Assembly: GCF_900141715.1 (NCBI RefSeq)
Contig: NZ_FQYK01000001.1
Coordinates: forward strand, 1-64,000
Source: Algibacter luteus
GTDB lineage: Bacteria; Bacteroidota; Bacteroidia; Flavobacteriales; Flavobacteriaceae
Length of the DNA: 64,000 nucleotides
Direction of reading: 5' to 3'
Part shown: positions 6,001-45,695 of the stretch, piece after piece
How the letters are laid out: each line of letters opens with the position of its first letter
How positions within the stretch are numbered: the first letter of the stretch is position 1
The notes under the pieces: generated by a model
The model's input: only the letters and a program-made list of their open reading frames with translations
Told to the model about the DNA's origin: nothing
Database searches by the model: none
Position numbers and translations under genes: made by a program

Positions 6001-6149
6001 TCATCTAACCAGTCTCTTAGTACTTGGTCATCATTTCCTACTGCAATTGCAGAACCTGGTACTATTGGAAAAATTGTTTGTGCATTTAATGTAGCGGACA
6101 TTAAAAATAAGAGTCCTATTATCGAAGTAATTTGTGTAATTTTTTTCAT
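1..6149 (-). CDS. Giant secreted multidomain protein (TLDc, Ig-like/HYR repeats, MopE motifs, LamG), 3' end outside window
   Basis: The frame is open from an ATG at 6149 to the left edge, over 2,040 codons, so the C-terminus is missing. Residues 1-24 form a signal peptide ending in LNAQT. Residues about 58-222 read as a TLDc domain (LLYRRSIHGASATAFHNLC, then VFGGYTPNSWNS). Then come Ig-like/HYR repeats (pattern QLDxNGxxxIxxxDI, DNCG, VTLTVTDxxGN), a beta-propeller-like stretch (plus-strand 4670-5345), a DUF5011-like repeat, two MopE-type Asp/Cys motifs (CDGIDNNCDG, CDGVDNDCN) around a cadherin-like beta-sandwich, a LamG domain (1608-2275) and a carbohydrate-binding-like domain (400-850). Such proteins are usually T9SS surface adhesins; the sorting domain would lie beyond the edge. 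It starts 5 bases after the stop of the small secreted gene upstream, so the two are probably co-transcribed. The exact ligand is unknown. Confidence 0.9.
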   Translation of the reverse strand, partial: MKKITQITSIIGLLFLMSATLNAQTIFPIVPGSAIAVGNDDQVLRDWLDDYGVAPSGTLLYRRSIHGASATAFHNLCDDKGPTLVVFKASNGQVFGGYTPNSWNSSYFNYNSSSQAFLFNLNSDRKASPYYPQNSTLSRPGYGPIFGGGHDIFINNSMDSGYFRPHSYNNIDGSGYAYNSSTAIKALTGINTTRTYYSFGSGFITEIEVYQIEFNTSAPIIQGQDITVLLDVNGNATITPQDIDTGTTDPDGTVTLSIDNTSFNCDNLGGNSTAITPTFIGSETQQTHSHGGGYNPITEEFWYPQWGNSNVYRYDKDHNYLGSFNSGQQYIMQLWMDTDSATDYYTSNWGQRTITKRSGSNIIWTYNMGITAASVSADANFVYAYGAWENVIRVLDKDTGVFIRNITLPGSIYSYGGLVVANDNIYIAGQANGWSTNSGDMRYLHKLDLYGNYINSTYLQTYPYNTAFDGETIWVSQNNNTIYGVKISEGSAYGGSGSNAVTLTATDPLGNARSKTFSVTVIDDIVPTITLNGDAIIDVIIGETFTDPEATATDNCAAEIEITGTVDVNTIGEYILSYKAVDGSGNESEVLTRTINVTGCDLASVTANTIDASCATAEDGGAEITINFADAPVAIEGNLGGPDWFPFGTPPTNPFALPIDNLGPGTYTVSIRETDDTDCQQSYEFTIGIQPNATDNDGDGVTVDDCDCDDNNASIYPGADELCDGIDNNCDGEIDNNAVSDAFLASLTGTDLVLSPAFDSNTFAYTAEVCNSITETIISATATNTLPSTSIVGDGYTELSAGLNIITVTVEACGITQDYSIAVTRLSEVLYYTDADNDGFGADTVGTALCSLQAGYATNNQDCDDTNSSVYPGASEVNCDGVDNDCNPNTLDNMNSVDVDFDVTSVTHGPVTPLEFGVDFVDGTDYTFASAGSNPGEAGGRTWTFTDLLPENYGGLWFTFNNIENPRHSTQAATGSMVFHSFDVNTGVATFHSTAPLTWTNPANGQLQSVNTQFRMQVQPVGATGTSPMSAGVVGSIPNHFVDGGETGLPNLGLDWPVLDISQQGDFKVWFAFEVQGTNQPLTQYYDNASTPPNTSFFTSVYSGFYGADKVCSNPGNELTLTAIPDTNNSGPFVYTFNNITNTTGIFSGIAAGNYDYSVLANNGCLTIGTHTVGPPDLSLLLPIPDLETLPDITAECEVTQLTPPSASTVCGGSVNVMHDANLPIIAQGTTVITWTYETDGGSVTQTQNVILEDTTSPVLVCEPLTVDVDPGVCEANISVMPPGVTDNCSNIGSTSLEFDGINDKIIIPYSSSFSFGTEVTMEAWIYPEKNTYSRILTNYSGGGSNPGEFVFDTYDPSEPNGRGLRLVFLNNAASASVSSPNVLSLNSWNHVAGTFDNGTIRIYVNGIEVNSSMATFTSITPSNLDLIIGEDRITGVPEFFKGKMDEMRIWNRALSATEIAFSHNKLLSGTEPGLVAYYNFEDGEGSNTLADSSGNGNTGTLNNMVPATDWVINDIPLLAYSLTNNVTGTSDASGVYPVGSTEIIWTATDANGNSDSCTQTITVEDNLPPDVVGQNIEVTLTASGTVSIVANDVLDTGSDNCGLVDYSISQDTFGAQDAIDSPVTIQLTGTDPSGNETTVPVIVTVIDPVPNAICQSITVYLDENGTVTIAPEDIDNGSNSVVGIGSLSLDIDTFGCENVGENTVTLTVESTLGAIATCDATVTVVDNLPPVIVCQDSIIQLDDNGTTTINASDINGGASDNCGIASVSFLTGTLGGEELVQNGSFLQGAYAWAVTNNSIGGPQSGGGNPVEFFLLSGDGNAGSDPTILQTINNLNIGEPYTITGDYKSNDSNTTGSDIFAIDLDGVEIATRPNPGTNWTAFSVTFVATAANQNIGFRAEINGTDTDIALDNIHIKQTITNVTAESIDFDCSNIGANEVTLLVMDVNGNSSICTGNVTVEDKVVPVVVTKDITVQLDATGNVSIVPGDIDDGSSDNCGIATYELDIDSFDCTNITGLLNTANTVEVTLTVTDIHGNVNSETATVTVEDK

Positions 6150-6154
6150 AGCCC

Positions 6155-6592
6155 TTAATTTTCAATGTTAATTATAAATTCGTTTAAAAAATCAGTAACT
6201 GCTATCGGATATTGGTCCTGATACTGTTTTGTGAGCATCATTTTAGGTGCCGATTCGCAAGTTTGTAATAAGGTTGTACCTGAAACTACGGAGATAGTTT
6301 CAAGTTCGTCGCTATTATTTGTTGTCGTCACTTTAGAAAAAGTTATGGATTTGCTTGAAGCATTATTATTTATAATTTTGAGCTTGAATGTTTCGTGTCT
6401 TAAATCTCCTTGTTCTGCAAATTCTATTGGATCAATATTCTGCCCACTTTCACAAGGAATTAATTCATAAAAAATTTGAATATTAGATTCTTCTTTTAAC
6501 AATGTCCAGGAGTCCTGAGCATACGTTTGAAATGAAAAAAGCATAAATACAATAATGCCACGAAAGAAATTTTTGAGTTGGTTGGTTTTCAT
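6155..6592 (-). CDS. Small secreted protein of unknown function, upstream partner of the giant protein
   Basis: 145 residues with an N-terminal signal peptide (hydrophobic FRGIIVFMLFSF, cut near TYAQD). The mature part is short and beta-rich, with two cysteines (IPCESG and QTCESAP) that could form a disulfide in the periplasm. A conserved-looking ending, YPIAVTDFLNEF, follows. I recognise no characterised domain. The stop is 5 bases before the start codon of the giant surface protein, on the same strand, so both probably lie on one mRNA. From that position I infer a helper role in export, folding or anchoring of the giant protein, or in the same surface structure. This is inference only. Confidence 0.8.
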   Translation of the reverse strand: MKTNQLKNFFRGIIVFMLFSFQTYAQDSWTLLKEESNIQIFYELIPCESGQNIDPIEFAEQGDLRHETFKLKIINNNASSKSITFSKVTTTNNSDELETISVVSGTTLLQTCESAPKMMLTKQYQDQYPIAVTDFLNEFIINIEN

Positions 6593-6852
6593 AATGATTG
6601 GTTTTAGTGATAATTAACCAAAACACAAACAAGTCAGGTAACTATTGTTTGCCTACAATAAGAAAACAATACTGCATTTAATTTTATGATACATTTAGGG
6701 TGCTAATAAGAAGTATAATTAGAGAAAACGCTTTAAATAGCCATATAAATTTTGAATTCCAGTTTTTAAATGAAGGAATACGGCTTTAAAACATGAATTT
6801 AATCGTTAGGGAAATTAATAATAGCACCGACAAATTAGAGATTAAGTCTAAG
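6593..6852. other. AT-rich intergenic region, no gene seen
   Basis: This stretch separates the small secreted gene from the PAS-LuxR gene, both on the minus strand. It must contain the promoter of the secreted-protein pair, but I find no exact TAnnTTTG box on the minus strand here. No coding frame with a plausible start was found. Confidence 0.5.
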
Positions 6853-6876
6853 TTATAAAATACCGTGAAGACGGTA
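6853..6876 (-). terminator. Intrinsic terminator of the PAS-LuxR gene
   Basis: Read on the minus strand, TACCGT-CTTC-ACGGTA is a perfect 6-bp stem with a four-base loop, followed by TTTTAT. It lies 25 bases after the stop of the regulator gene and separates it from the secreted-protein operon. Confidence 0.6.
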
Positions 6877-6900
6877 ATTCGTTAAAACGAGCCATTTATA

Positions 6901-7713
6901 CTATAAAATACCATTAAGATGGCAAAACTCTATAAGCTCTTTTTTGTTATGGCAGTTACTTTTTTTAAGGATATTTTTACGGTGAGCCACTACAGTATGA
7001 ATACTTATAAATAGAGTGCTAGCAATGTTGCTATTAGTAAAACCCTTATCAATAAGGCTGATAATTTCCTTCTCTCTATCTGTAAAAAAATTAGCGAATT
7101 CATGATAAATACTTTTTTTGAAAAGGCTTACATCTATATTACCCGCATAAAGCTCCCATTCGACAAAATTAGTACTTGTTTTGATGAACGAAATATCAGT
7201 TAAAACCGATAAATGCGTCAATAATATACCATCTTCGCCTGTTTGAAACGGTAAAGACTGCCGCATCACCCTTAAATAGGTTCCATCTTTTTTTAATAAC
7301 CGGAAGGTGACGTTCAAATATTGCTTTTGTGCACTTACATTATTTCTAATTGCAAAATTCACAACGCCTTTAAGTATGCGATTAATAACATCAATATCAT
7401 CTGGATGTATTAATGTTAATGCCATTTCCATGGTAAATTCATCTTTTGAATAGCCTAACATTTGTCGAATTCCTCGCGAATATTCCAATCGCGATTTTTG
7501 CCAGTTTAAAATATACATGGCCTGTTTTCCCATTACTATTGGGAACTTTTTTATCGACTTGAACTTATGAGTTTTTACAATACGATTATGCAGAATTTTA
7601 GCAATTTCTTTGCTAAATTTTGATGAGTCAAACAATGTCGTTTTTCTATTGTTGATCAATTTTATTGGGCTGGTAAGTTTTTTAAATATACTGAAAATAT
7701 AATTTTTGTACAA
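6901..7713 (-). CDS. PAS-domain LuxR-family transcriptional regulator
   Basis: 270 residues. Residues about 65-185 resemble a PAS fold with its PAC end (GYSKDEF, IHPDDIDVINRI, RLLKKDGTYLRVMRQS, LSVLTDIS). Residues about 205-268 are a LuxR/GerE helix-turn-helix (FTDREKEIISLIDKGFTNSN, then IASTLFISIHTVVAHRKNIL). It should bind DNA in response to a small ligand or redox cue sensed by the PAS domain; the signal is unknown. No receiver domain is present, so it is not a classical response regulator. The frame opens at a TAA two codons before the TTG at 7713. The first ATG is at 7533, just ahead of the PAS core. The intervening 60 residues (FSKEIAKILH...) look like real protein, so I take the TTG start. 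Adjacency to the giant surface-protein operon makes that operon a possible target. Confidence 0.85.
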   Translation of the reverse strand: MYKNYIFSIFKKLTSPIKLINNRKTTLFDSSKFSKEIAKILHNRIVKTHKFKSIKKFPIVMGKQAMYILNWQKSRLEYSRGIRQMLGYSKDEFTMEMALTLIHPDDIDVINRILKGVVNFAIRNNVSAQKQYLNVTFRLLKKDGTYLRVMRQSLPFQTGEDGILLTHLSVLTDISFIKTSTNFVEWELYAGNIDVSLFKKSIYHEFANFFTDREKEIISLIDKGFTNSNIASTLFISIHTVVAHRKNILKKSNCHNKKELIEFCHLNGIL

Positions 7714-32067: not shown

Positions 32068-32175
32068 CTACTTTTTCTTATTTAGTTTGTAAATAAGATA
32101 AATAAAACCAACAAGAAAATGAGCTATTATAACTCCAGCTACTATATATATTGTTAAATTTGAACCGTCTCGCAT
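32068..32175 (-). CDS. Candidate 35-residue single-pass membrane microprotein
   Basis: ATG at 32175, stop TAG at 32068. The product is 35 residues: a polar start (MRDGSNL), a hydrophobic segment TIYIVAGVIIAHFLVGFIYL and a basic tail YKLNKKK, a classic single-pass arrangement with the C-terminus in the cytosol by the positive-inside rule. It lies upstream of the riboswitch on the same strand. Its start overlaps the btuF promoter region on the other strand. It is too short for most gene finders. There is no independent evidence of expression. Confidence 0.5.
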   Translation of the reverse strand: MRDGSNLTIYIVAGVIIAHFLVGFIYLIYKLNKKK

Positions 32176-32188
32176 GATTTTATTTTTG
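32159..32188 (+). promoter_or_regulatory. Promoter of the btuF-btuC-btuD operon
   Basis: TTTG (32159-32162), 18 bases, TATTTTTG (32181-32188). Sequence and spacing fit the Bacteroidota pattern. The start at 32243 then has a leader of about 50 bases. Confidence 0.6.
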
Positions 32189-32242
32189 TCAAAAATAAGT
32201 AACCAAATCATGTTTAAATCTGACAATTATCATATTACAACT

Positions 32243-33388
32243 ATGACCAAAACTTTTCTTTATTTATTTCTAATTTGTAGTCTGCTTGCCTGTAATAAAA
32301 AGGTTAAAACTGAAATATTAAATTCAGAAGAAAATCAAAAATCAGAATTAAAATACGCCGAAGGATTTTCGATAACTAAAACAACCAATTACACTATTAT
32401 TGAAATAAATCAGCCCTGGCCTAATGCTGAGAAAAGTTATAAATATGTGGTGATTTCTAAAGCAAATGCTGCCAAAACTAGCTTTTTAAAAGATGAATTT
32501 GATGGCATTATAATTACCCCAATTGAAAAAATAGTAGTCACTTCAACCACACACCTTCCTGCGTTAGAATTACTCGAGGAAGAAGAAACTTTAGTTGGTT
32601 TTCCGGGAACACATTACATTTCATCAGAATCCATTAGAAACCGAATAGACAATAACAAAGTAAGAGAGCTTGGGAAAAATGAAGGCATAAATACCGAAGT
32701 ATTGTTAGAATTAAACCCAGATCTTGTTGTTGGTTTTGGTATTGATGGAGGAAACCGCTCTCTTGAAATTATTAAAAAATCGGGGGTTCCTGTAATATTT
32801 AATGGCGATTGGGTTGAGCATTCACCGCTTGCAAAGGCTGAATGGATTAAATTTTTTGGTGTCCTTTACAATAAAGAAAAAAAGGCAGATTCTATTTTTA
32901 ATCATATTGAAAAAGATTACTTAGCTACTAAACAATTGGCACTTAATGCAACAACTAAACCAAGCGTATTAAGTGGTGCCATGCATAACGACATTTGGTA
33001 CTTGCCAAACGGAAATAGTACTGAGGCACAACTTTTAATTGATGCTAACGTGAATTATCTTTGGAACGATTCCGAAGGAAAAGGAAGTTTGCAGCTTAAT
33101 TTTGAATCGGTTTTTATTAAAGCGAGAGACGCCGCTATTTGGTTGAACCCGTCAAATTATTCAAGTTTAGATGCTTTAAAAAATGGTAACGAAAACCATG
33201 CGATGTTTGATGCATTCAAAAATAAAAATGTGTATTCATTTACTAATACTACCGGGAAAACTGGCGGTGTTTTATACTACGAATTAGGAATGGCAAGACC
33301 AGATTTGGTATTAAAAGATCTTATTAAAATTTGTCACCCCAACTTACTTCAAGATTACAAACCCTTCTTCTTTAAACCTTTAGAATAA
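32243..33388 (+). CDS. btuF: Cobalamin ABC transporter substrate-binding lipoprotein (BtuF type)
   Basis: 381 residues from the ATG at 32243. This start leaves a proper lipoprotein signal (FLYLFLICSLLAC, Cys17). Starts at 32174 and 32210 would precede or crowd the promoter box and bury the signal. The fold is the helical-backbone type of class III binding proteins (HLPALELLEEEETLVGFPGT, LELNPDLVVGFGIDGG, KKSGVPVIFNGDWVEHSPL). It captures the ligand released by the TonB receptor and hands it to BtuCD. A siderophore or haem ligand is the alternative, but the nearby B12 riboswitch argues for a corrinoid. No riboswitch is seen on this strand. Confidence 0.85.
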   Translation: MTKTFLYLFLICSLLACNKKVKTEILNSEENQKSELKYAEGFSITKTTNYTIIEINQPWPNAEKSYKYVVISKANAAKTSFLKDEFDGIIITPIEKIVVTSTTHLPALELLEEEETLVGFPGTHYISSESIRNRIDNNKVRELGKNEGINTEVLLELNPDLVVGFGIDGGNRSLEIIKKSGVPVIFNGDWVEHSPLAKAEWIKFFGVLYNKEKKADSIFNHIEKDYLATKQLALNATTKPSVLSGAMHNDIWYLPNGNSTEAQLLIDANVNYLWNDSEGKGSLQLNFESVFIKARDAAIWLNPSNYSSLDALKNGNENHAMFDAFKNKNVYSFTNTTGKTGGVLYYELGMARPDLVLKDLIKICHPNLLQDYKPFFFKPLE

Positions 33389-34420
33389 TTGTTGAATAAA
33401 AAAACATATCAGGTGCCTTTCATCATATTAATAGTTTTATTAATTGTGTGTTTTTTTGTGAATATCAGTTTAGGGTCGGTTTCTATTCCGTTAAAAGCGA
33501 TAGTTAATAGTCTTATTGGTAACGCCACGGATCAAGAAACTTGGCAACTTATTATTCAAAATTATAGATTACCAAAAGCCTTAACTGCGATTATAGTCGG
33601 CTCCGGTTTAGGGATTTCTGGATTACTCATGCAAACACTTTTTAGAAACCCTTTAGCAGGACCATTTGTTTTAGGCATAAGCTCTGGTGCCAGTTTGGGC
33701 GTTGCTCTTGTTATTCTAGGATCAAATATTTTTGGAGGTGTATTGGCCGCTTTAATGATTTCAAAATGGGGCATAGTTTTAGCAGCGAGTTTAGGTAGTT
33801 TTTTGGTATTGATTGCAGTGCTATTGGTTTCTTTAAAAGTACAAGATACCATGGCCATATTAATCATAGGACTTATGTTTGCCAGTATTACCGCAGCAAT
33901 TGTTAGTGTACTTTCCTTTTTCGGGTCTGCGGAACAATTACAGCAATATATCTTCTGGGGATTTGGTAGTTTAGGCAATTTAACTTGGGATGATTTAATT
34001 ATTTTACTTTCAATTTATAGCATCGGTCTTATTCTCGGCATTGCATCAATTAAATCATTAAATACATTTCTCTTAGGCGAAAATTACGCCAAAAGCTTAG
34101 GTTTGAATTTAAAACAAAGTAGGTTCTTAATTATAATTGCAACGAGTTTACTAGCGGGAACTATTACCGCTTTTACTGGTCCAATCGCATTTATTGGTCT
34201 GGCAATTCCACATTTAACAAGACAAGTTTTTAATACCTCAAATCATAAAATATTACTGCCAGCAGTTTTTTTATTTGGGGCCATTGTGATGCTTATTTGC
34301 GATATAATTGCGCAATTACCGCACAGCGATTATACATTACCTATAAATGCAATTACGTCTCTAGTAGGTGCGCCTGTGGTTATTTGGCTTTTAGTTAGAA
34401 AACGAAAAATGATATTTTAA
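33389..34420 (+). CDS. btuC: ABC transporter permease, FecCD/BtuC family
   Basis: 343 residues with about nine to ten membrane helices. Family motifs are LPKALTAIIVGSGLGISGLL, MQTLFRNPLAGPFVLGISSG and GPIAFIGLAIPHLTRQ, the last including the ATPase-coupling loop. It forms the inner-membrane channel for the BtuF ligand. The start must be a TTG (33389 or 33392): the btuF stop TAA lies directly before it in the same frame, and the next Met is inside helix two. Its last base is shared with the btuD ATG. Confidence 0.88.
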   Translation: MLNKKTYQVPFIILIVLLIVCFFVNISLGSVSIPLKAIVNSLIGNATDQETWQLIIQNYRLPKALTAIIVGSGLGISGLLMQTLFRNPLAGPFVLGISSGASLGVALVILGSNIFGGVLAALMISKWGIVLAASLGSFLVLIAVLLVSLKVQDTMAILIIGLMFASITAAIVSVLSFFGSAEQLQQYIFWGFGSLGNLTWDDLIILLSIYSIGLILGIASIKSLNTFLLGENYAKSLGLNLKQSRFLIIIATSLLAGTITAFTGPIAFIGLAIPHLTRQVFNTSNHKILLPAVFLFGAIVMLICDIIAQLPHSDYTLPINAITSLVGAPVVIWLLVRKRKMIF

Positions 34421-35214
34421 TGACAGACACCAACAAACATATCATTTTAAAAACTAAAGATTTATCTATTGGTTATACTTCCAAGAAGTCTAAAACAGTA
34501 TTGGCCTCGAGCATTAATATTGAATTGAAAAAAGGTACTCTCGTTGGACTAATTGGTGCAAATGGAATTGGTAAATCTACCCTATTACGAACGCTCACCA
34601 ATGTACAAAACCCACTAAGTGGAGAAGTTTACATCAACAACACCAACTTACTAAAATACGCTGCTATTGATTTGGCTAAAGTTTTAAGTTTGGTTTTAAC
34701 CGAACCTGTAGCTTCAAAAAACATGTCGGTTTTAGAGCTCGTAGCTTTAGGCAGACAACCCTATACAAACTGGATTGGGAGCTTATCCAAACGGGATTTA
34801 GAGATTATTAATAAAGCCTTGAACCAAACTAATATCACAGAATTAAAACACAAAAAATGTTTTGAATTAAGTGATGGTCAACTTCAAAAAGTCATGATTA
34901 CAAGGGCTTTAGCACAGGATACCGATTTAATTATTCTAGATGAACCTACAACGCATTTAGATATGTATCATAAAGCCTATATTTTAAAACTACTTCAGAG
35001 GTTAGCCATAGAAACCAATAAAACCATACTTTTTTCTTCGCATGAAATCGATTTGGCTATTCAACTGTGTGATCAATTGGTTGTGATGACAAAAACGGGA
35101 GTCGTTTCAGACGCACCTTGTAACTTAATAAAAAAAGGTACTTTTGAAACGCTGTTTCCTAAAGACTTAATTGCTTTTGATGAGAAAACGGGTAGTTTTA
35201 GGGTGAAGAAATAA
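34420..35214 (+). CDS. btuD: ABC transporter ATP-binding protein, BtuD/FecE family
   Basis: 264 residues. Walker A is GLIGANGIGKSTLLR, the signature region is ELSDGQLQKVMITRAL, Walker B is LIILDEPTTHLD, and the switch His is in FSSHEIDLAIQ. The signature reads LSDGQ rather than LSGGQ, a common variant in this family. It powers the BtuC permease. The ATG overlaps the btuC stop (TAATG), so translation is probably coupled. Confidence 0.9.
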   Translation: MTDTNKHIILKTKDLSIGYTSKKSKTVLASSINIELKKGTLVGLIGANGIGKSTLLRTLTNVQNPLSGEVYINNTNLLKYAAIDLAKVLSLVLTEPVASKNMSVLELVALGRQPYTNWIGSLSKRDLEIINKALNQTNITELKHKKCFELSDGQLQKVMITRALAQDTDLIILDEPTTHLDMYHKAYILKLLQRLAIETNKTILFSSHEIDLAIQLCDQLVVMTKTGVVSDAPCNLIKKGTFETLFPKDLIAFDEKTGSFRVKK

Positions 35215-36782: not shown

Positions 36783-37319
36783 ATGTTCAAACACGCCAAA
36801 GATTCTCAAGTATCAATTACAGAACTTATGTTACCTGCCCATTCTAATTTTAGTGGTAAAATTCATGGTGGTCATATTTTAAATTTAATGGATCAAATAG
36901 CATTTGCGTGCGCTTCAAAACACTCCAGAAACTATTGTGTTACCGCATCTGTTAATCGTGTAGATTTTTTAAACCCTATTGAAGTTGGTGAATTGGTCAC
37001 CCTCAAAGCATCGGTAAATTATACCGGAAGAACTTCAATGGTGATTGGGCTTCGAGTAGAATCTCAAAACATTCAAACAGGTAAAGTGAAACATTGTAAT
37101 TCGTCATACTTCACAATGGTTGCTAAAGATGAAAATGGTAAAAATGTTAAGGTTCCTGGTTTAATTTTAGATGACAAACAAAGTGTAAGACGTTTTGCCA
37201 GAAGCATAGCCAGACAAGAACAAGCTAAAACCAGATCATCAAGATTTAAGTCTTCAGAATTTAAGATGGAAGAGCATTTAGAGGCTATAAAACTGCACAA
37301 TGTTAAACTTGAGCTTTAG
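36783..37319 (+). CDS. Acyl-CoA thioesterase (hotdog fold)
   Basis: 178 residues. The hotdog motif is HSNFSGKIHGGHILNLMDQI, with catalytic Asp in LMDQ, and VGELVTLKASVNYTGRTSM follows. It is one hotdog domain of the YciA/BACH type with a basic C-terminal tail of about 45 residues. It hydrolyses acyl-CoA to free acid and CoA; chain-length preference is not readable. The stop overlaps that of the convergent TonB receptor gene by four bases. No exact promoter box was found. Confidence 0.9.
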   Translation: MFKHAKDSQVSITELMLPAHSNFSGKIHGGHILNLMDQIAFACASKHSRNYCVTASVNRVDFLNPIEVGELVTLKASVNYTGRTSMVIGLRVESQNIQTGKVKHCNSSYFTMVAKDENGKNVKVPGLILDDKQSVRRFARSIARQEQAKTRSSRFKSSEFKMEEHLEAIKLHNVKLEL

Positions 37320-39832
37320 AAATAAACTCTAAAAACGGCATTTGGAGTAAATCCTAAAGAATTTTGTGTGGTCTCAACAACTTGTTCGTTATTAAGACGA
37401 TAAAAGTTATTAATCTGATTTTCATAATCTAAAAGGTTCCATATTGAAATTCCAATATTGGCTTTTGTATGAGGTCCTAATTTGAAATCATAAATTGCTG
37501 AAAGATCTATTCGCATGTAATCTTCTAAGTTGGAAGCATTGGTTGCACCAAAATTCACCTCGTTATTAATAATCTCATTTCCTAAAATTGGTAAGGTGGT
37601 AGGTTTTCCAGAATGCCAATTTAAACCTGCTGAAAGTTTTAATTTATTTAATTTATATGCAGTTCCCATAGTAAAAGTTTGTGTTACATCAAAATTACTA
37701 GGAAAATAATCAGCTTCTAATTCATTAAAAAAATAGCGATTATTCATTAAAGAATAACTTAGCCAGGTATTAAATTTTTTGAGTCGTTTACTTATTAAAA
37801 CGTCAACGCCTTTTACATCATACTTTCCTTTACTTTTTACAAATTCATATTGATTTTGAAACCCTTGACTCTGAGTTGTAACGCCTTTCACAACTTTATA
37901 AAACCAATCAATATCAACCAACCAACCATTATTGTTATAATTTATTCCAGTAGAAATTTGTTTACTTGTAATAACAGGGATGTTTTGATTATTTGATAAT
38001 TGCCATCTCCGTTTTTCTATGCCTAAAAAATCATTCTGAAAATTTATAACTTGTGATGTATTTTGATGCTTATATTCTCCTAAAACTTCAAACGAAAAGT
38101 GTTCAAGAAATTGGTGACTAAAATTCAGTCTTGGTTCCCAAATTGATTTTTTAAATTTATTAATATAATTGTACCTCAATCCAACATTTAAACTGGTTCT
38201 TCTGTTTAACGATTTATAATCTATCTGAGAAAAAATGCCATGAGTTCTTAGAACTTCAGAAACCAAATTTTTAAATCTAGGGATGTCAACATCATCCAAA
38301 TTTGTTACTTCAGTTTCCACAAAATGATAGCCAGTTAAAAACTTAAACGTATTGTTTAATTTATAATTCGATTTAAGTTTAATACTAGTTTCGGAGACTA
38401 TATTCTCTTGAAGATAACGCTGAGATTCTAAAACATTTACATTTACCGCTTTCAGTTTATAATCGGTTTCATAAATTTCTAGCTCTGTATTAAAATCCTG
38501 ATTCCATTCCCTAATATAATGTAACGCTCCTGCAATACTATTTTGTGATAATTGACTTTCTCGAGATACAAATTGATTATTAATTGTAGCATTCTCATTA
38601 AATTGAAGTTGGTTATGAACATTAATAAAATTAAGTCGAACCTCATCGGTATCACTAATTTTATAAATCCATCTGAAAGACGTATCGTAAAAGTCGAACG
38701 TTTCATTGCTATTGGTAATTGTTGAAGCATTACTAGAGACCTCGGTATTTTGCGAAATCCGGTCAAAAAAAGCAGTATAGGTGGGTGTTTCAACGAAATC
38801 ACTAATAGATTTTCTGGCAGCAATCTGTATTGAAGACGATTTGTTAATTGGCACATCCACAAAGCTATTTATATTAGTTAAATTAACTTCAGCTAAACCA
38901 TCAAACTCTTTATTTATCGCCTTATCGGTTTGCATTGCTATGGTACCAGAAACACCATCGGTATAGCTTACATCACTACCATTTTTTCTTAAAAAAACAG
39001 TTTGCGTAATATGTGGATTATACATAGAAATGAGACCAAAAAAATGACCGGATTGATACATTTTTATTCCATCCCAAAGCATTAAATTTTGGTCGTGAGT
39101 TCCTCCTCGAATATTAATATTAGATACCGATTCATTTATACTTTGAATACCTGGAAACGCCTGAACAGATTGCAAAACATCATCATCTATTAATCCTGGT
39201 AAAATATCAAAATTAGAAAAATCTATTTCGTAAGAACCATCACTTAACTTATTAATCCCGCCAGTAATATAGTTTGAAATAACAACCTCGGCTAAAGATT
39301 GAACATTTGAGGATAAATAAATATCTTCACATTTCAATATACTAAATTCATGTAATGGTTTTGTTATGGTTTTATAACCTAAAAACCGAATGGTTATAGG
39401 TGTGTTTATATTTTCAATTTCTATTTGAAAAAAACCATTGTCGTCGGTTATTGTTGAATGATTTGTTGACTGAATGGTTGCAGCTACTAAAGGTTGCAAA
39501 TTACTTTTATCTTTAATATAACCACAAAATATGCTATCCTTTTTAGGCTTTACTAATACGATACGATCGTTCATAATTGAAAACGACAAGCCTGTTTTAG
39601 TTTCTAAATAAGCTAGCACTTCATTTAATGACAAACGCTCCAATGGAGGCATTATAACAAAGTCGTCAATAGTATCTTCAGCATAATTAAACTGAACATC
39701 AAAACGTTCTTGTAATACATCTATAACATGAGAAAGTGACTCTTGCTTTTTAGTTTTTTGAGCATAACAACTAAAAAGAACAAAAAATAATAAACTAAAA
39801 AAAATGATTATTTTTTTTTTTCTAATTACCAT
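37316..39832 (-). CDS. TonB-dependent receptor with STN signalling domain
   Basis: 838 residues. The signal peptide ends near SCYAQ. Residues about 30-98 are an STN domain (VIDVLQERFDVQFNYAEDTI) that would contact FecR. Then a carboxypeptidase-regulatory-like domain (about 102-175), a plug (VLQSVQAFPGIQSINESVSN, INIRGGTHDQNLMLWDG) and a barrel to the C-terminal Phe (FRVYF). It should import a nutrient or siderophore and report occupancy to the FecR/sigma pair encoded upstream. There is no SusD-type partner. It starts 11 bases inside the FecR gene. The ligand is unknown. Confidence 0.92.
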   Translation of the reverse strand: MVIRKKKIIIFFSLLFFVLFSCYAQKTKKQESLSHVIDVLQERFDVQFNYAEDTIDDFVIMPPLERLSLNEVLAYLETKTGLSFSIMNDRIVLVKPKKDSIFCGYIKDKSNLQPLVAATIQSTNHSTITDDNGFFQIEIENINTPITIRFLGYKTITKPLHEFSILKCEDIYLSSNVQSLAEVVISNYITGGINKLSDGSYEIDFSNFDILPGLIDDDVLQSVQAFPGIQSINESVSNINIRGGTHDQNLMLWDGIKMYQSGHFFGLISMYNPHITQTVFLRKNGSDVSYTDGVSGTIAMQTDKAINKEFDGLAEVNLTNINSFVDVPINKSSSIQIAARKSISDFVETPTYTAFFDRISQNTEVSSNASTITNSNETFDFYDTSFRWIYKISDTDEVRLNFINVHNQLQFNENATINNQFVSRESQLSQNSIAGALHYIREWNQDFNTELEIYETDYKLKAVNVNVLESQRYLQENIVSETSIKLKSNYKLNNTFKFLTGYHFVETEVTNLDDVDIPRFKNLVSEVLRTHGIFSQIDYKSLNRRTSLNVGLRYNYINKFKKSIWEPRLNFSHQFLEHFSFEVLGEYKHQNTSQVINFQNDFLGIEKRRWQLSNNQNIPVITSKQISTGINYNNNGWLVDIDWFYKVVKGVTTQSQGFQNQYEFVKSKGKYDVKGVDVLISKRLKKFNTWLSYSLMNNRYFFNELEADYFPSNFDVTQTFTMGTAYKLNKLKLSAGLNWHSGKPTTLPILGNEIINNEVNFGATNASNLEDYMRIDLSAIYDFKLGPHTKANIGISIWNLLDYENQINNFYRLNNEQVVETTQNSLGFTPNAVFRVYF

Positions 39833-40727
39833 GTATTACTACCAGATTTGAAGTATTAATTTCATAGGTTATATTCATGGGTTGTGTTATTGCAATAAGG
39901 GCATTTTCAAGATTATCATGTGGAAAAATTCCAGTAAACAATCTTGTTACATCTATATTTTTCGAGACTACCTCAATTTTATATTGTCTTTCTAGTTCCG
40001 CTATAACTTCACCAATAGGAATAGCATTAAATTCACTTATGTTTTGAGTCCATTTTGGCGAACCTGCTAAAGTCTTTGCTTTGGAAAACTTACCATCTAG
40101 AATCAGATAGACATCACCAGCCGATAATTGTCTAACAATAGTATCTGAAACAACATTTACTTCGCCTTCAAAACATTTAACTTCAAAATAATTTTTACGT
40201 TGTTTTACATTAAATTTTGTACCTACAACGGTAACTAAACCAGTGGTTGTTTTTACCTGAAACGAGTTTCCTTTGGCGACTTTAAAATAGGCTTCACCAA
40301 TTAATATTAAAGTCCTTTTATTTTCCCAATTTCTATCATTATACTCTATTGAAGAAAGCGCATTCAATTCAACTTGCGAATTATCAGGAAGTTGTATTGT
40401 CGTTTTTTGGCTTGCTAAAGTTTTCACAACTATATTGTTATTGTAAATAAAGGTAAGGTACATCGCTAATAATAAAAATACAATACTTGCTATTTTTATA
40501 AATGGATTAAACCAAATTAACTTTTTGGTTGTTTTTTTTGATGCTTTATATTGAGCTTTTAGGTTATCAAAATCAGCTATTTTTTGAGAAGGATCTGCTT
40601 TAAAATATTTAGCACTATCAACAATATATTGGTTTACAGCAGCGTCATCTAATTCATTAAATGCTTGTTTTTCAGAATCTGTAAGATCTTCATTCAACCA
40701 TTTTTTTATTAAATATTCTTTATCCAT
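39822..40727 (-). CDS. FecR-family anti-sigma regulator
   Basis: 301 residues from the ATG at 40727; an upstream in-frame Met at 40754 is less likely. The cytosolic N-terminal part is helical (DKEYLIKKWLNEDLTDSEKQ). A membrane helix is at about 87-106. A periplasmic FecR domain follows (TTIQLPDNSQVELNALSSIE, VVGTKFNVKQRKNYFEVKCF), and the last 70 residues (IAELERQYKIEVVS, FTGIFPHDNLENAL) form the domain that meets the STN domain. It holds the upstream sigma factor inactive until the receptor signals. Confidence 0.92.
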   Translation of the reverse strand: MDKEYLIKKWLNEDLTDSEKQAFNELDDAAVNQYIVDSAKYFKADPSQKIADFDNLKAQYKASKKTTKKLIWFNPFIKIASIVFLLLAMYLTFIYNNNIVVKTLASQKTTIQLPDNSQVELNALSSIEYNDRNWENKRTLILIGEAYFKVAKGNSFQVKTTTGLVTVVGTKFNVKQRKNYFEVKCFEGEVNVVSDTIVRQLSAGDVYLILDGKFSKAKTLAGSPKWTQNISEFNAIPIGEVIAELERQYKIEVVSKNIDVTRLFTGIFPHDNLENALIAITQPMNITYEINTSNLVVIHGN

Positions 40728-40775
40728 TGTAAGCTTAACTTTAATATATAACAACTAAAACTTAGAAACTCCTGA

Positions 40776-41300
40776 TTATTTTATTTTAAATCCTTTCAAT
40801 TCTTTTTTCAAAATATTAAAAGCACTGTAAATTCTATATTCAACTACTTTTTGTGTAACCCCTAAAAGCTCTGCAATCTCACTGTGTTTTTTCCCTTCAG
40901 CTTTATTCAATAAGAAAGCTACACGTTGTTCTTCACTTAATTTCTCTAATACTTTTTGATATTGTTGTAAAAACTCCTCTTGCTCTAGAATAAACTCTGG
41001 GGACTCATTTGTATATAGTTCTGGCTTTTCTAAATGATATTTTAATACAATTTTATGATGTTTAATATCATTTAACGTCATATTATTAGCCACAGTAAAT
41101 AAAAACGCTTTAGCTTTATTGAACGGTACTTTTCTGCAATTATTCCACAGTTTAATAAAGGCTTCTTGGGTTTTATCTGAGGGATTATATTGCTCTCCAT
41201 ATTTGTAATACAAAAAGTTGTACAAATCTTTCGCGTACTTTTTATAAATACGTTCAAAAATAGCATCTTCACAAATATTATCGTTAAGTTCTTTCGGCAA
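40776..41300 (-). CDS. ECF sigma factor, FecI type
   Basis: 174 residues. Region 2 is FERIYKKYAKDLYNFLYYKY plus DKTQEAFIKLWNN; region 4 is LSEEQRVAFLLNKAEGKKHS followed by EIAELLGVTQKVVEYRIYSA. It is paired with the FecR gene 48 bases downstream. The start must be the TTG at 41300: a TGA lies three codons upstream, and there is no ATG before region 2. The start context has a GAGCCACC before it. The divergent lipoprotein gene starts 221 bases away. Confidence 0.9.
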   Translation of the reverse strand: MPKELNDNICEDAIFERIYKKYAKDLYNFLYYKYGEQYNPSDKTQEAFIKLWNNCRKVPFNKAKAFLFTVANNMTLNDIKHHKIVLKYHLEKPELYTNESPEFILEQEEFLQQYQKVLEKLSEEQRVAFLLNKAEGKKHSEIAELLGVTQKVVEYRIYSAFNILKKELKGFKIK

Positions 41301-41470
41301 GGTGGCTCATTTTATTCTCTAAAGTTAGATAAAAAATTTGTACGAATTTAAAGAGTTATATTATGTATCGAAGTTTTAATAAAAAGATAGTTGAGTAACT
41401 TATAACAATCTACCATATTATAGTTTTTACATATACTTCAAATAAAATCAAAAAAAGTTTCAGGAGTTTT

Positions 41471-41478
41471 TATGTTTG
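41471..41478 (+). promoter_or_regulatory. -7 box of the repeat lipoprotein gene
   Basis: TATGTTTG matches TAnnTTTG, 43 bases ahead of the ATG at 41522. Confidence 0.45.
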
Positions 41479-41521
41479 AGTTGTTTTATTAATAAAGGCC
41501 TTTGTTGAGGGTTTCATAATC

Positions 41522-42595
41522 ATGAGAAAATCATTTTATAAATCGGTGCTAGTTTTATTTTTTGTCTCACTGGCATTTGCGTCATGTAGAACTGAAGAAT
41601 CAGAACTCATAGAATCTCCTCCTGAAGATGTTTTAGTTGCGAGTTCTACAGTAACAAGACTAATGCAAAACGTTTCCATCAATGATGGATCGATTGACAA
41701 TATAATTGATTATGCCAATTGTTTTAATATCAAATTACCAGTTAAAGTAAACGCAAACGGGCAAGAAATTACTATTAATTATGAAAACGATTACAAAAAG
41801 ATAGAGTATATATTTGATGACTCTGATGACGACGTGGATACTATCAGCATTACCTATCCGATACAAATAATTCTTAAAGATTTTAGTGAAGTTGTTATAA
41901 ATAATAATACCGAATTATTGAGCTATTCCAGTAACTGTAATGGTGAAAATGAATATGATGAGGATATTGAATGTTTAGATTTTAACTACCCAATTTCAGC
42001 TTTTATTTTCAATTCCAATGATGAAATTATATACACACTACAAATAACTAACGATAGCGAAATATTTAACCTCATTCAGAACCTTGATAACTTTGATTTT
42101 GTATCTCTAAGATTTCCATTAACATTGACGATTTATGATGGCACCGAGTTGATAATTAATGATTTAAATCAATTAGAAACCACTATTGAAGCTTACAAAG
42201 ATTCCTGCGATGAAGACGACGATTATGATTTTAATGATGATGATTGTAATGATTGCAATCCCCTCCAGCTGATTGATATTTTAACAAATTGCTCGGATTG
42301 GACAGTAGATAAATTAAAACGTTACGGTAATGACTATGATGATGTGTATGACGGTTACACCTTTAACTTTCAAAAAGATGGAACTGTAAGCGTATATTAC
42401 TCTGGAGGTTCTGCATATGGTACATGGACAGCAAGTGGAGCTGGCAATAATATAACAGTAACTATTGATATACCTGATTTACCATATTGTAATAATGATT
42501 GGATATTACACGAGATTTCTGAATATTCTGAAACAAAAATTGATCTAAGAGTAGGAAGTTATAGTAGGTTAAGATATGAGAACATTTGCAACTAA
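41522..42595 (+). CDS. Lipoprotein with two cysteine-bounded repeats and a lipocalin-like end
   Basis: 357 residues. The lipobox is LAFASC (Cys22). Two homologous beta-rich units follow, each opening and closing on a cysteine: Cys67-Cys139 and Cys151-Cys229. Both share the pattern hydrophobic-x-hydrophobic-Pro (KLPVKV/NYPISA, then TYPIQIIL/RFPLTLTI) and end with a DGTELIIN/DFSEVVIN strand before the last Cys. An acidic linker (about 230-246, mostly Asp) leads to a C-terminal domain that looks lipocalin-like (FQKDGTVSVYYSGG, ending YENIC). It is divergent from a FecI-FecR-TonB cassette, so it is a candidate member of that regulon. I recognise no characterised family. Confidence 0.8.
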   Translation: MRKSFYKSVLVLFFVSLAFASCRTEESELIESPPEDVLVASSTVTRLMQNVSINDGSIDNIIDYANCFNIKLPVKVNANGQEITINYENDYKKIEYIFDDSDDDVDTISITYPIQIILKDFSEVVINNNTELLSYSSNCNGENEYDEDIECLDFNYPISAFIFNSNDEIIYTLQITNDSEIFNLIQNLDNFDFVSLRFPLTLTIYDGTELIINDLNQLETTIEAYKDSCDEDDDYDFNDDDCNDCNPLQLIDILTNCSDWTVDKLKRYGNDYDDVYDGYTFNFQKDGTVSVYYSGGSAYGTWTASGAGNNITVTIDIPDLPYCNNDWILHEISEYSETKIDLRVGSYSRLRYENICN

Positions 42596-42786: not shown

Positions 42787-43167
42787 ATGAAAAAGTTACT
42801 ACTTATTATTGTGCTTATAATTACAGCTTTTTGCTTGTATAAATATGTTTATCAGAATCATAGAGATATAGAAAACGAAGAAGCTAGTTTTGAACTTAAA
42901 TCAAGCACGCTAATTAATGAGTTTTCAATAAATCCGATTGAATCAGAAACCAAATATCTTAATAAAACTATTGAAATAACTGGCTCAATTACAGATATAA
43001 ACGCCACCAATCTTACCTTAAACAATATCATTTTTTGTCAATTTTCAGAGCATTTACAAAAATCACTTTCGATGAATTCCCAAGTCAAAATAAAAGGACG
43101 TTTTATAGGCTATGATGATTTATTAGAACAAATCAAACTAGACCAATGTACAGTTGGCATTAATTAA
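42787..43167 (+). CDS. OB-fold (tRNA_anti-like) exported protein
   Basis: 126 residues. An N-terminal membrane anchor or signal (LLLIIVLIITAFCLYKYVY) is followed by an OB-fold of the tRNA_anti-like type (YLNKTIEITGSITDINATNL, KSLSMNSQVKIKGRFIGYDD). Despite its name, the family is periplasmic in this setting. It probably binds an oligomer or stabilises partners. It opens the gene run that continues with the cupredoxin 12 bases later. Confidence 0.8.
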   Translation: MKKLLLIIVLIITAFCLYKYVYQNHRDIENEEASFELKSSTLINEFSINPIESETKYLNKTIEITGSITDINATNLTLNNIIFCQFSEHLQKSLSMNSQVKIKGRFIGYDDLLEQIKLDQCTVGIN

Positions 43168-43179
43168 GAAACTATTACT

Positions 43180-43755
43180 ATGAAAATCAAACTACTAACA
43201 TTATTTTTTTTAGGAATTACATCCCTAAGCGCTCAAACAACTCATAATTTAAATTGGCAAATTGGAATTGGCACAAATGTAGATTTAACTATTGAAGTTG
43301 GTGATACCGTTATTTGGAATTGGACAGATAATGCACCCCATACTGTTACAAGTTTACCTGGAAGCGCAGAATCTTTTAACAGTGGGTCCATTACTGGTAA
43401 TGGCTCGACATATTCAAGAGTTTTCAACATTGTTGGCAGTAATCCATACGAATGTAGTTTTCATCCATTCTCAATGGCTGGAACAATTACAGTTCAAAAC
43501 ACGCTAAGCGTTAATGATTTTTTTAAAAATGGCTTTTCAATATCGCCTAATCCAGTAAAAACTGTTATCAACTTAAAAATGCCTTTAAATGTTAAGATAG
43601 ACGAAGTTAAAATTTATAATCTATTAGGTAAAGAAGTGTATTTTAATAGTATATTAGAGAAACAAATAAATATTTCTAAATTAAGTAATGGTATTTATCT
43701 TGTAAAAATATCATCTGAAGGAAAAACTAAAACTAAACGATTCATTAAAATATAG
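43180..43755 (+). CDS. Cupredoxin (plastocyanin-like) protein with T9SS C-terminal sorting domain
   Basis: 191 residues. A signal peptide (cut near SAQTTHN) precedes a single blue-copper domain with a type 1 copper site: His54 (NAPHTVTS), Cys92, His95 and Met99 (YECSFHPFSMAG). Residues about 110-191 are a type A T9SS sorting domain (NGFSISPNPVKTVINLKMPL, VKIYNLLGKEV, NGIYLVKISSEGKTKTKRFI). The protein is thus exported across the outer membrane and held on, or shed from, the cell surface, where it can carry single electrons. It is followed by a DUF5777 barrel gene. Confidence 0.92.
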   Translation: MKIKLLTLFFLGITSLSAQTTHNLNWQIGIGTNVDLTIEVGDTVIWNWTDNAPHTVTSLPGSAESFNSGSITGNGSTYSRVFNIVGSNPYECSFHPFSMAGTITVQNTLSVNDFFKNGFSISPNPVKTVINLKMPLNVKIDEVKIYNLLGKEVYFNSILEKQINISKLSNGIYLVKISSEGKTKTKRFIKI

Positions 43756-43812
43756 ACTTAAAATTATTGAACAATTACAAAAAATAAATTCTCTATAATA
43801 AATACCAGCCAA

Positions 43813-44661
43813 ATGAAATATCAATTATTAGCATTTTTACTTATTCCGATAATAGCAATTTCTCAAAACGATTTATTAGATGAAATAGATTCTGATACGC
43901 TCGTTGACCAATATGCAACTGCTGCCTTTAAAGGATTAAAAATTGTGAATTTTGAATCTACTAAACTAGTAGCTGAAGGAGAATTAAATTTTATTGTATC
44001 TCATAGATTTGGAAGTGTTGAAGGCGGATTTGATAGTTTTTTTGGTCTTGATGAGGCAGTAACACGGATACATTTTGTTTACGGGTTAACGGAAGCTATA
44101 AATATAGGGGTTTCTAGAAGTTCATTTCTTAAAATCTATGATGTTACGGCAAAGTATAGATTAATACGTCAAAAAGAAAATGGGTTTCCTTTTACCGTAG
44201 TCGGATTCAATGCATTATTAATTAACACGGCTTTAGATAAAGATAATTTGCCCCTTTTAGAATTTAAACACCGTTTAGGCTATACGGCACAACTATTAAT
44301 TTCAAGAAAAGTGAATACTGATTTAACCTTACAATTGGCGCCAACTTTTTTTCATGACAATTATGTTGTTTTTGATGCACAAGCAAATTCACAAATAGCT
44401 CTTGGTCTTGGTGGTAGATACAAATTAGGAAAAAGATGGTCTGTAAATGCCGATTATGGTTTGCATCTTAACAGAGCAGATAACTCGCCTTTTAAAAATC
44501 CGTTATCTATAGGATTCGATTTAGAAACTGGTGGCCATGTATTCCAAATGCACTTTTCTAATGCTCAAGCAATGAATACCAATGGTTTTTTAGGACAAGG
44601 AACTGGTGATTGGGGTGATGGTGATATTTATTTCGGATTTAACTTGAGTAGAACTTTCTAA
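43813..44661 (+). CDS. DUF5777 outer-membrane beta-barrel protein
   Basis: 282 residues with a signal peptide (LLAFLLIPIIAIS, cut near QND). The rest is amphipathic beta strands that end in Phe (FNLSRTF), as in outer-membrane barrels. The family pattern is FKGLKIVNFESTKLVAEGEL, NFIVSHRFGSVEGG and YGLTEAINIGVSRSS. The function is not established. It sits between a secreted blue-copper protein and a cytochrome, so it could be a porin or conduit for the same electron or ligand flow. Confidence 0.88.
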   Translation: MKYQLLAFLLIPIIAISQNDLLDEIDSDTLVDQYATAAFKGLKIVNFESTKLVAEGELNFIVSHRFGSVEGGFDSFFGLDEAVTRIHFVYGLTEAINIGVSRSSFLKIYDVTAKYRLIRQKENGFPFTVVGFNALLINTALDKDNLPLLEFKHRLGYTAQLLISRKVNTDLTLQLAPTFFHDNYVVFDAQANSQIALGLGGRYKLGKRWSVNADYGLHLNRADNSPFKNPLSIGFDLETGGHVFQMHFSNAQAMNTNGFLGQGTGDWGDGDIYFGFNLSRTF

Positions 44662-44722
44662 ATTTTTTTAGAATTAATTATTATAAAAATAAAATTCAAC
44701 AAATAACTTAAAAATAAAAACT

Positions 44723-45079
44723 ATGAAAACTAAAAATTTAATTTTCGTTCTAGCAATGTCGATGTTGCTATTCAATTGTTCTAGTGATAGTAATGATGAT
44801 GTCAAGGAACAAGAAATGAATCCAGATCCAACTACAATTACTTATGATGCACATATTGCAAGTATTATCAATAACAATTGTAACCAATGCCATGGAAGTA
44901 CGCCAACTAACAATGCGCCTTTTTCATTAACCACTTACGATGCTGTAAGAGGTAGAGTTGACCGCATCATTGCGCGTGTAAATAATTCAACCAATCCAAT
45001 GCCTCCATCTGGCCAGATAAGTTCCAATTTGAGGGACATGATACAAAAATGGAAAGATGATGGACTATTAGAAAACTAA
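44723..45079 (+). CDS. Lipoprotein cytochrome c (single CxxCH)
   Basis: 118 residues. The lipobox is MLLFNC (Cys19). The mature part has NNNCNQCHGST (CxxCH at 53-57) and a C-terminal Met-bearing segment NPMPPSG that could be the axial ligand. It is a small mono-haem cytochrome anchored in the outer or inner membrane. It stands 61 bases after DUF5777 and before YceI. Confidence 0.88.
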   Translation: MKTKNLIFVLAMSMLLFNCSSDSNDDVKEQEMNPDPTTITYDAHIASIINNNCNQCHGSTPTNNAPFSLTTYDAVRGRVDRIIARVNNSTNPMPPSGQISSNLRDMIQKWKDDGLLEN

Positions 45080-45140
45080 TTTTTTTTAATTTCTGGTTTA
45101 GTTTTTGCGTGTGTTTAGTGATTATGAAATTAAAAGAAAT

Positions 45141-45695
45141 ATGATACGAAAGAAATATTTTTTGACTTTAGTCATATGCTTTATTAGTTGTATTGGTTTT
45201 TCTCAAACCAAGTACATTACTAAAACCGGTGTGGTATCTTTTGAAGCCTCAGTCCCCTCTTTTGAAGAAGTAAAAGCATCAAACAATTCGGTAACAGCCA
45301 TTATAAATACAGATTCTGGTGAATTTGCTGCACTTGTTCTTATAAAAGGCTTTCGCTTTAAAAATGCCTTAATGGAGGAACATTTTAATGAAAATTATGC
45401 AGAGTCAGACCAATTTCCTAAAGCGACTTTTAAGGGTAAAATTACTGATTTTAATTTAGGGAATATCACAACAAACACGTCTTTTAAAGCTAATGGTGAG
45501 TTAAATTTTCATGGTAAAACAAAGCAACTCAAAGATATTGTGTTTAATATTTCCAAGGGAGAAAATGAAATTTCCATTACAGGAAATTTTAAAGCTTTAG
45601 CTTCAGATTTTGATATTAAAATTCCTAAAATAGTTAGTAACAAAATTGCTGAAGATATTGAAGTGTCTTTTCAGTTTGATTTAAAAAAGAAATAA
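45141..45695 (+). CDS. YceI-family periplasmic protein
   Basis: 184 residues from the ATG at 45141; a longer reading needs a TTG at 45105 and breaks the signal peptide. The signal (TLVICFISCIGFS, cut near QTKY) is followed by the YceI lipocalin-like barrel: FEASVPSFEEVKASNNSVTA, FPKATFKGKITDFN, FKANGELNFHGKTKQL. YceI barrels bind polyisoprenoid lipids such as quinones. In this gene run it could supply or store a quinone for the cytochrome and copper protein. A strong terminator follows. Confidence 0.9.
   Translation: MIRKKYFLTLVICFISCIGFSQTKYITKTGVVSFEASVPSFEEVKASNNSVTAIINTDSGEFAALVLIKGFRFKNALMEEHFNENYAESDQFPKATFKGKITDFNLGNITTNTSFKANGELNFHGKTKQLKDIVFNISKGENEISITGNFKALASDFDIKIPKIVSNKIAEDIEVSFQFDLKKK

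Follow-up and report, generated by a model that had tools for sequence, protein, structure and literature searches.

A divergently encoded, predicted surface lipoprotein is the near-constant companion of a FecI-FecR-TonB receptor signaling cassette in marine flavobacteria

We analyzed a stretch of 64,000 nucleotides from Algibacter luteus (contig NZ_FQYK01000001.1, positions 1 to 64,000; here called the window) and found that its cell-surface signaling cassette—a FecI-type extracytoplasmic function (ECF) σ factor, a FecR anti-σ factor and a TonB-dependent receptor (TBDR)—faces a lipoprotein gene, LP, with which it is almost always paired in marine flavobacteria. Because this pairing is near-constant and both halves of the locus carry the cassette's own apparent promoter, it is very probable that LP takes part in the work of the sensor rather than lying next to it by chance. 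Signaling TonB receptors are usually described as a set of receptor, anti-σ factor and σ factor; here, an orphan lipoprotein recurs as a constant fourth component across many flavobacterial genera, and we found no published description of LP in the open-licence literature searched. An earlier reading of the same DNA, referred to below as the original prediction, had placed FecI, FecR and the TBDR on the minus strand and a lipoprotein opposite them, and all four genes lie where it put them. The locus comprises the following features, in the order of the forward strand:

37316 to 39832, minus strand: TBDR, 838 amino acids (aa), plug and barrel; Plug over the Pfam cut-off
39278 to 39526, minus strand: CarboxypepD_reg-like domain at receptor residues 103-185 (8.1e-10)
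39542 to 39760, minus strand: N-terminal STN-type signaling domain of the receptor, residues ~25-97 (FecR_C 8.2e-6, STN 0.0038)
39822 to 40754 as the listed open reading frame (ORF), minus strand: FecR anti-σ factor (FecR PF04773 7.6e-19, FecR_C PF16344 5.9e-9)
40746 to 40775, minus strand: predicted ECF promoter for fecR-TBDR, TCAGGAGTTTCTAAGTTTTAGTTGTTATAT, the second-best match in the genome, with 1 mismatch
40776 to 41300, minus strand: FecI-type ECF σ factor (fecI), TTG start (Pfam Sigma70_r4_2 8e-13, Sigma70_r2 5.3e-8)
41460 to 41489, plus strand: predicted ECF promoter for LP, TCAGGAGTTTTTATGTTTGAGTTGTTTTAT, the only exact match in the 3.4-Mb genome
41522 to 42595, plus strand: partner lipoprotein LP, 357 aa, from ORF and alignment
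41585 to 41602, plus strand: LP lipobox Cys22 and what follows it, CRTEES, resembling a lipoprotein export signal
41720 to 41938, plus strand: LP Cys-bounded unit 1, C67-C139, 73 residues, half-units h1 and h2 (hhalign; model)
41972 to 42208, plus strand: LP Cys-bounded unit 2, C151-C229, 79 residues, half-units h3 and h4 (hhalign; model)
42206 to 42256, plus strand: LP Asp-rich linker, CDEDDDYDFNDDDCNDC (also written CDEDDDYDFNDDDC), nearly invariant in the close clade
42260 to 42592, plus strand: LP C-terminal lipocalin-like barrel, from fold comparison of the predicted model

The association of LP with the cassette was assessed from both sides. Using LP alone, we fetched 80 relatives from public genomes, and fecI was divergent from LP in all 78 that had enough contig (77 by automatic count plus L040, counted apart because its over-long LP reading frame overlaps fecI). 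The full FecI-FecR-TBDR cassette was present in 70 of the 71 relatives with enough flank. The exception, a Winogradskyella metagenome-assembled genome (L029), has a tyrosine recombinase (integrase) directly behind fecI (~5700-7330) and lacks fecR-TBDR at the locus, which points either to insertion of a mobile element or to a join made during assembly. A profile search of 295 genomes of the class added eight LP homologues of full architecture, with identities down to ~20% and one of them from another family, and all eight face the same cassette; the matches to the lipocalin part only and one repeat-only protein found in that search have no such cassette opposite. From the receptor side, a search blind to LP covered 149 genomes of the family and recovered the receptor subfamily in 104 of them; 70 of the 78 informative loci have a divergent LP. 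The genome of the window itself encodes 34 plug-bearing receptors, yet just three that are of the STN type and just three FecR proteins. These form three cassettes, which share a single contig, and none of the cassettes is without LP-family genes. The placement of the LP family relative to STN receptors is far from random in both directions, and the random placement that would have spoken against the original prediction was not observed; on this genomic record, the link between LP and the cassette is not random. That the two are merely conserved neighbors, kept together by common descent with no functional link, is very improbable: genes further downstream are also conserved in the closest clade, as such a history would have it, but Kordia, Maribacter and Muriicola retain the cassette-LP pair between wholly different flanks, and common descent fits poorly with an LP in each of three paralogous cassettes of one genome and with the promoters that both halves share.

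These promoters form pairs. The intergenic region between fecI and LP is poorly conserved save for one block upstream of LP, TTCAGGAgTTTTtAaaa.t.aGTTGTTtTAt, which contains a conserved ECF-type promoter motif (TCAGGAnTTTT-N9-GTTGTTnTAT), and a second copy of this motif lies between fecI and fecR. The LP promoter was found in 79 of 80 relatives, and in the 77 loci with a recognizable core the spacing from AGG to TTGTT is constant. The second site, located between the fecI stop codon and fecR and pointing to fecR-TBDR, is present in 71 of 77 relatives; the weight matrix was trained on LP sites alone and gave 2 matches at the same threshold in a control of 1.26 Mb of reversed sequence. Throughout the 3.4-Mb genome, only the LP and fecR sites come within one mismatch of the motif, other candidates, at three mismatches, being at control level. 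With a generic motif, the LP-blind sample gave sites at 51 of 70 LP positions and 58 of 70 fecR positions, compared to 1-4 in controls. The paralogous cassettes have diverged promoter pairs of the same spacing as in the window: one carries GTAGGGTnAA...TTGTCTTA, exact before LP1, LP2 and fecR, and the other GGGTAGGAA...CTGTTnTAT, before LP and fecR only and nowhere else at 2 mismatches. In the LP-blind sample, the two sites of one cassette are more alike than sites of different cassettes (16.6 versus 14.1 of 21 positions), a difference that is inflated by the relatedness of the cassettes.

These pairs lead us to predict that LP and fecR-TBDR are co-regulated from the cassette's own ECF promoters, which the cassette's FecI would read. 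Since both transcripts would start from the cassette's own promoters, the regulon of the window cassette is predicted to consist essentially of LP, FecR and the receptor. The dependence of LP on the σ factor anticipated in the original prediction is therefore supported by the promoter pairs, in silico only, and both the partnership of LP with the receptor and their co-regulation appear well supported by comparative genomics. A predicted regulon this small, with two promoters in a 3.4-Mb genome, makes the function of the system directly reachable, and the matched promoter pairs offer a ready system for studying how paralogous ECF σ factors avoid cross talk.

The cassette has the domains of FecI/FecR/FecA-type signaling, namely, an ECF σ factor with regions 2 and 4, a FecR protein with its C-terminal domain and a TonB receptor with an N-terminal STN-type domain, and the minus-strand order of transcription is fecI, fecR and TBDR, with LP on the plus strand and divergent from fecI. 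FecI also matches TIGR02985 at 1.3e-29, under the cut-off of that family. For FecR, the ATG at 40727 (39822 to 40727) is the likely start, because a gene beginning at the listed TTG (40754) would extend into the promoter. At the N terminus of the receptor (residues 30-97), the FecR_C match is over the cut-off and the STN match under it, and no SusD match was found in the ten neighboring proteins scanned with Pfam, in line with the STN receptor lacking a SusD partner that had been proposed from the sequence. In one large clade, which includes Winogradskyella, Psychroserpens and others, the receptors are ~763 aa long and the CarboxypepD_reg domain is deleted, so that this domain is, to judge by the alignment, dispensable. 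Loss of the STN domain in these shorter receptors was considered and ruled out: in the alignment, all full-length partner receptors retain STN, and the ~763-aa forms among them have lost only CarboxypepD_reg. Given that the aligned receptors retain STN while CarboxypepD_reg has been lost in one large clade, signaling looks like the conserved function of the receptor.

In the fec system of Escherichia coli, ligand binding to FecA acts via the STN domain on FecR, and FecI is freed or activated; FecI reads fecA, and fecIR is not autoregulated (PMC9249621). The flavobacterial cassette resembles this system in having an ECF σ factor, a FecR regulator and a receptor with an N-terminal signaling domain, and in that fecI stands outside the predicted loop. 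It differs in that a separate promoter sets fecR apart from fecI and makes it part of the output, that a divergent lipoprotein forms a second output, that no uptake genes are included and that the receptor has an added CarboxypepD_reg domain.

LP itself reaches the cut-off of no Pfam or NCBIfam family. In the Bacteroidota, the surface export signal of lipoproteins has been defined as X-K-(D/E)2 after the lipobox Cys (PMC5080379); among 75 LP relatives, 73 have C-x-x-(D/E)2 at this position and 34 have the exact C-x-K-(D/E)2, suggesting that LP is probably surface exposed. The two Cys-to-Cys units of 73 and 79 residues noticed in the original prediction are real, and profiles over 75 relatives refine them to four repeats, with each unit consisting of two half-units of ~40 residues. 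All four Cys are conserved, three of them invariantly, in the 75-row alignment. Profile-profile comparison with hhalign matched unit 1 to unit 2 at an E value of 8e-14, and the half-units to each other at 2.6e-15 (h2 and h4), 1.8e-7 (h1 and h4), 3e-6 (h2 and h3), 1.7e-5 (h1 and h2) and 3.9e-5 (h3 and h4), compared to no better than 0.0067 for segments outside the repeat region. The structure prediction that had been suggested for the repeats yielded a confident AlphaFold2 model with a predicted local distance difference test (pLDDT) score of 85 for the whole protein, 88 for the repeat part and ~93 for the C-terminal barrel, and with a beta-hairpin-helix pattern in every repeat. When the repeat region was modeled alone, PDB matches did not exceed Z 4.2 over 38-42 aligned residues, which is not evidence of a new fold. 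One lipoprotein (L152:6948-7832) has no lipocalin end and consists of two YPV..DGT units bounded by Cys; as it occurs in a context without FecI/FecR, the LP repeat is a wider, as yet unnamed, domain.

The lipocalin-like end that had been proposed for LP was borne out at the level of fold: comparison of the predicted model confirmed the C-terminal third as a lipocalin-like, calycin-type beta barrel by structure, not by sequence cut-offs, with matches to 4zgf (DUF4847; Z 9.6 over 100 residues, 3.1 Å) and 4nyq (Z 10.0 over 103 residues, 2.8 Å). The protease inhibitor potempin E is also a fold neighbor (Z 9.2 over 88 residues). The fold is thus shared with Bacteroidetes lipocalin-like domains (DUF4847, DUF4923); unlike those domains, the barrel is only the last third of LP, and the sequence of the window LP scores under the curated cut-offs. 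Between repeats and barrel, the Asp-rich linker is as described in the original prediction, whereas the calcium binding suggested for it was not upheld: the linker contains no recognized calcium motif, it is absent in the paralogues of the second cassette (L086) and in distant members and hence clade specific, the model is of low confidence there, and composition is the only support.

Our leading reading, which we hold with moderate confidence, is that of a FecI-FecR-TBDR cell-surface signaling unit with LP as its dedicated partner for capturing an extracellular ligand. In this mechanism, fecI would be transcribed separately, and FecI would transcribe LP and fecR-TBDR and not its own gene. LP would be exported to the cell surface, capture the ligand with its four-repeat head, its lipocalin-like barrel or both, and pass it on at the mouth of the receptor, whose STN domain would then relieve FecR and activate FecI; active FecI would in turn produce more LP and receptor in a positive-feedback loop. 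Ligand capture at the receptor mouth is proposed because SusCD, BtuBG and XusAB also pair a surface lipoprotein with a single TonB receptor produced alongside it, and in these systems the lipoprotein captures the ligand and delivers it to the receptor. SusC-SusD glycan systems with σ/anti-σ control are known, with STN signaling in hybrid systems; like them, the present system combines a receptor and a lipoprotein, but it has no SusD-family protein, the receptor is 838 aa long, and the lipoprotein is encoded apart, on the opposite strand. In the BtuB-BtuG pedal-bin complexes for vitamin B12, a lipoprotein lid sits on a non-SusC TonB receptor of Bacteroidota (PMC10404256), and here, too, such a receptor is encoded with a (predicted) surface lipoprotein; in contrast to BtuG, LP is modeled as four beta-hairpin-helix repeats plus a lipocalin-like barrel, and the pair belongs to a σ/anti-σ cassette. 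In the XusA-XusB xenosiderophore system, the surface lipoprotein hands a small ligand to its TonB receptor (PMC13142918), a transfer like the one proposed here, although control would in our case go via FecI/FecR. As in BtuBG and XusAB, LP is encoded with a TonB receptor and, by our prediction, co-regulated with it, and none of the sequence and fold matches listed for LP belongs to the BtuG or XusB family. Whether lipoprotein lids serve Bacteroidota in sensing, in addition to import, is a question that the small predicted regulon brings within reach.

Several observations weigh against this mechanism. The export signal of the window LP (CRTEE) carries Thr in place of the Lys of the optimal signal, and 8 of the 78 receptor-subfamily loci, mostly among the most divergent receptors, have no LP. 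A mirror-tree analysis revealed no co-divergence of LP and receptor beyond that of neighboring genes (partial r of 0.28, compared to 0.27-0.57 for control genes), and comparison of the loci of relatives revealed no conserved genes for inner-membrane uptake beside the cassette, which would be unusual for import. The surface ligand-capture partner replacing SusD, as envisaged in the original prediction, therefore fits the pairing, while the mirror-tree comparison lends it no specific LP-receptor signal.

An alternative that we regard as possible but on the whole unlikely is that LP is an output of the cassette instead of a receptor partner: a surface effector, such as an adhesin or a protective or inhibitor protein, switched on by the σ factor upon sensing. 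The promoters speak directly for output status; further secreted or membrane proteins seem to have joined the output of some cassettes (a DUF4382 lipoprotein, a DUF4956 protein, a His-rich protein, an additional lipocalin-like lipoprotein), one fold neighbor of the barrel, potempin E, is a protease inhibitor, and uptake genes are not conserved at the locus. However, LP is the ever-present output, shares a two-promoter regulon with the receptor and follows the receptor subfamily in the LP-blind loci (70 of 78), as would be expected of a receptor partner more than of an effector among many. Another reading, in which LP itself is what the receptor detects, for example as it reaches or departs from the surface, and the cassette would thus monitor its own lipoprotein, is improbable. 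The smallest regulon, with nothing besides cassette and LP, and the possession of its own LP by each of the three cassettes of the genome would agree with such self-monitoring, but we know of no precedent for a FecA-type receptor that does so. By contrast, there are receptor-lipoprotein pairs for which the ligand is known (PMC10404256, PMC13142918). Returning to ligand capture by LP, the cassette may sense without importing, as no uptake genes travel with it. An extension that we put forward only tentatively, and consider rather doubtful, is a dedicated sensor in which LP would be the external ligand-binding subunit of a signaling chain that imports nothing, with each paralogous cassette a promoter-insulated channel for its own ligand.

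Neighboring genes in the window were considered as further parts of the system. Downstream of LP (42787-45695) lie genes for an OB-fold protein, a cupredoxin sorted by the type IX secretion system, a DUF5777 barrel, a c-type cytochrome lipoprotein and YceI; this block is conserved in the close clade only and was ruled out. An operon for a FecCD-type ATP-binding cassette transporter (32174-35214) was set aside as the uptake partner because the intervening genes already vary by genus, the operon's own conservation not having been searched.

Related loci contain additional genes. In L008, L020, L061, L067 and L069, the interval from fecI to LP contains small ORFs (61-84 codons), usually behind an extra σ-like site, and the two that were scanned matched no Pfam family over the cut-off. 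In Kordia-, Maribacter- and Muriicola-type loci (L053, L056, L057, L063, L064, L066, L071-L078, L084 and L085), a second lipoprotein of ~160-300 residues with lipocalin-like domains is encoded just downstream of LP. Extra copies of the motif (L073:9868, L074:9880, L053:11479, L084:8520 and L063:10650) stand upstream of a DUF4382-type lipoprotein at four loci and of a DUF4956 membrane protein at one, and these genes are perhaps added members of the regulon. Finally, in the second cassette of the window's own genome (L086, C5:386000-400000), LP is present in two copies that both have a site of their own, and an additional site precedes a His-rich secreted protein of 151 residues, beside a metalloprotease-like lipoprotein and a beta-barrel protein.

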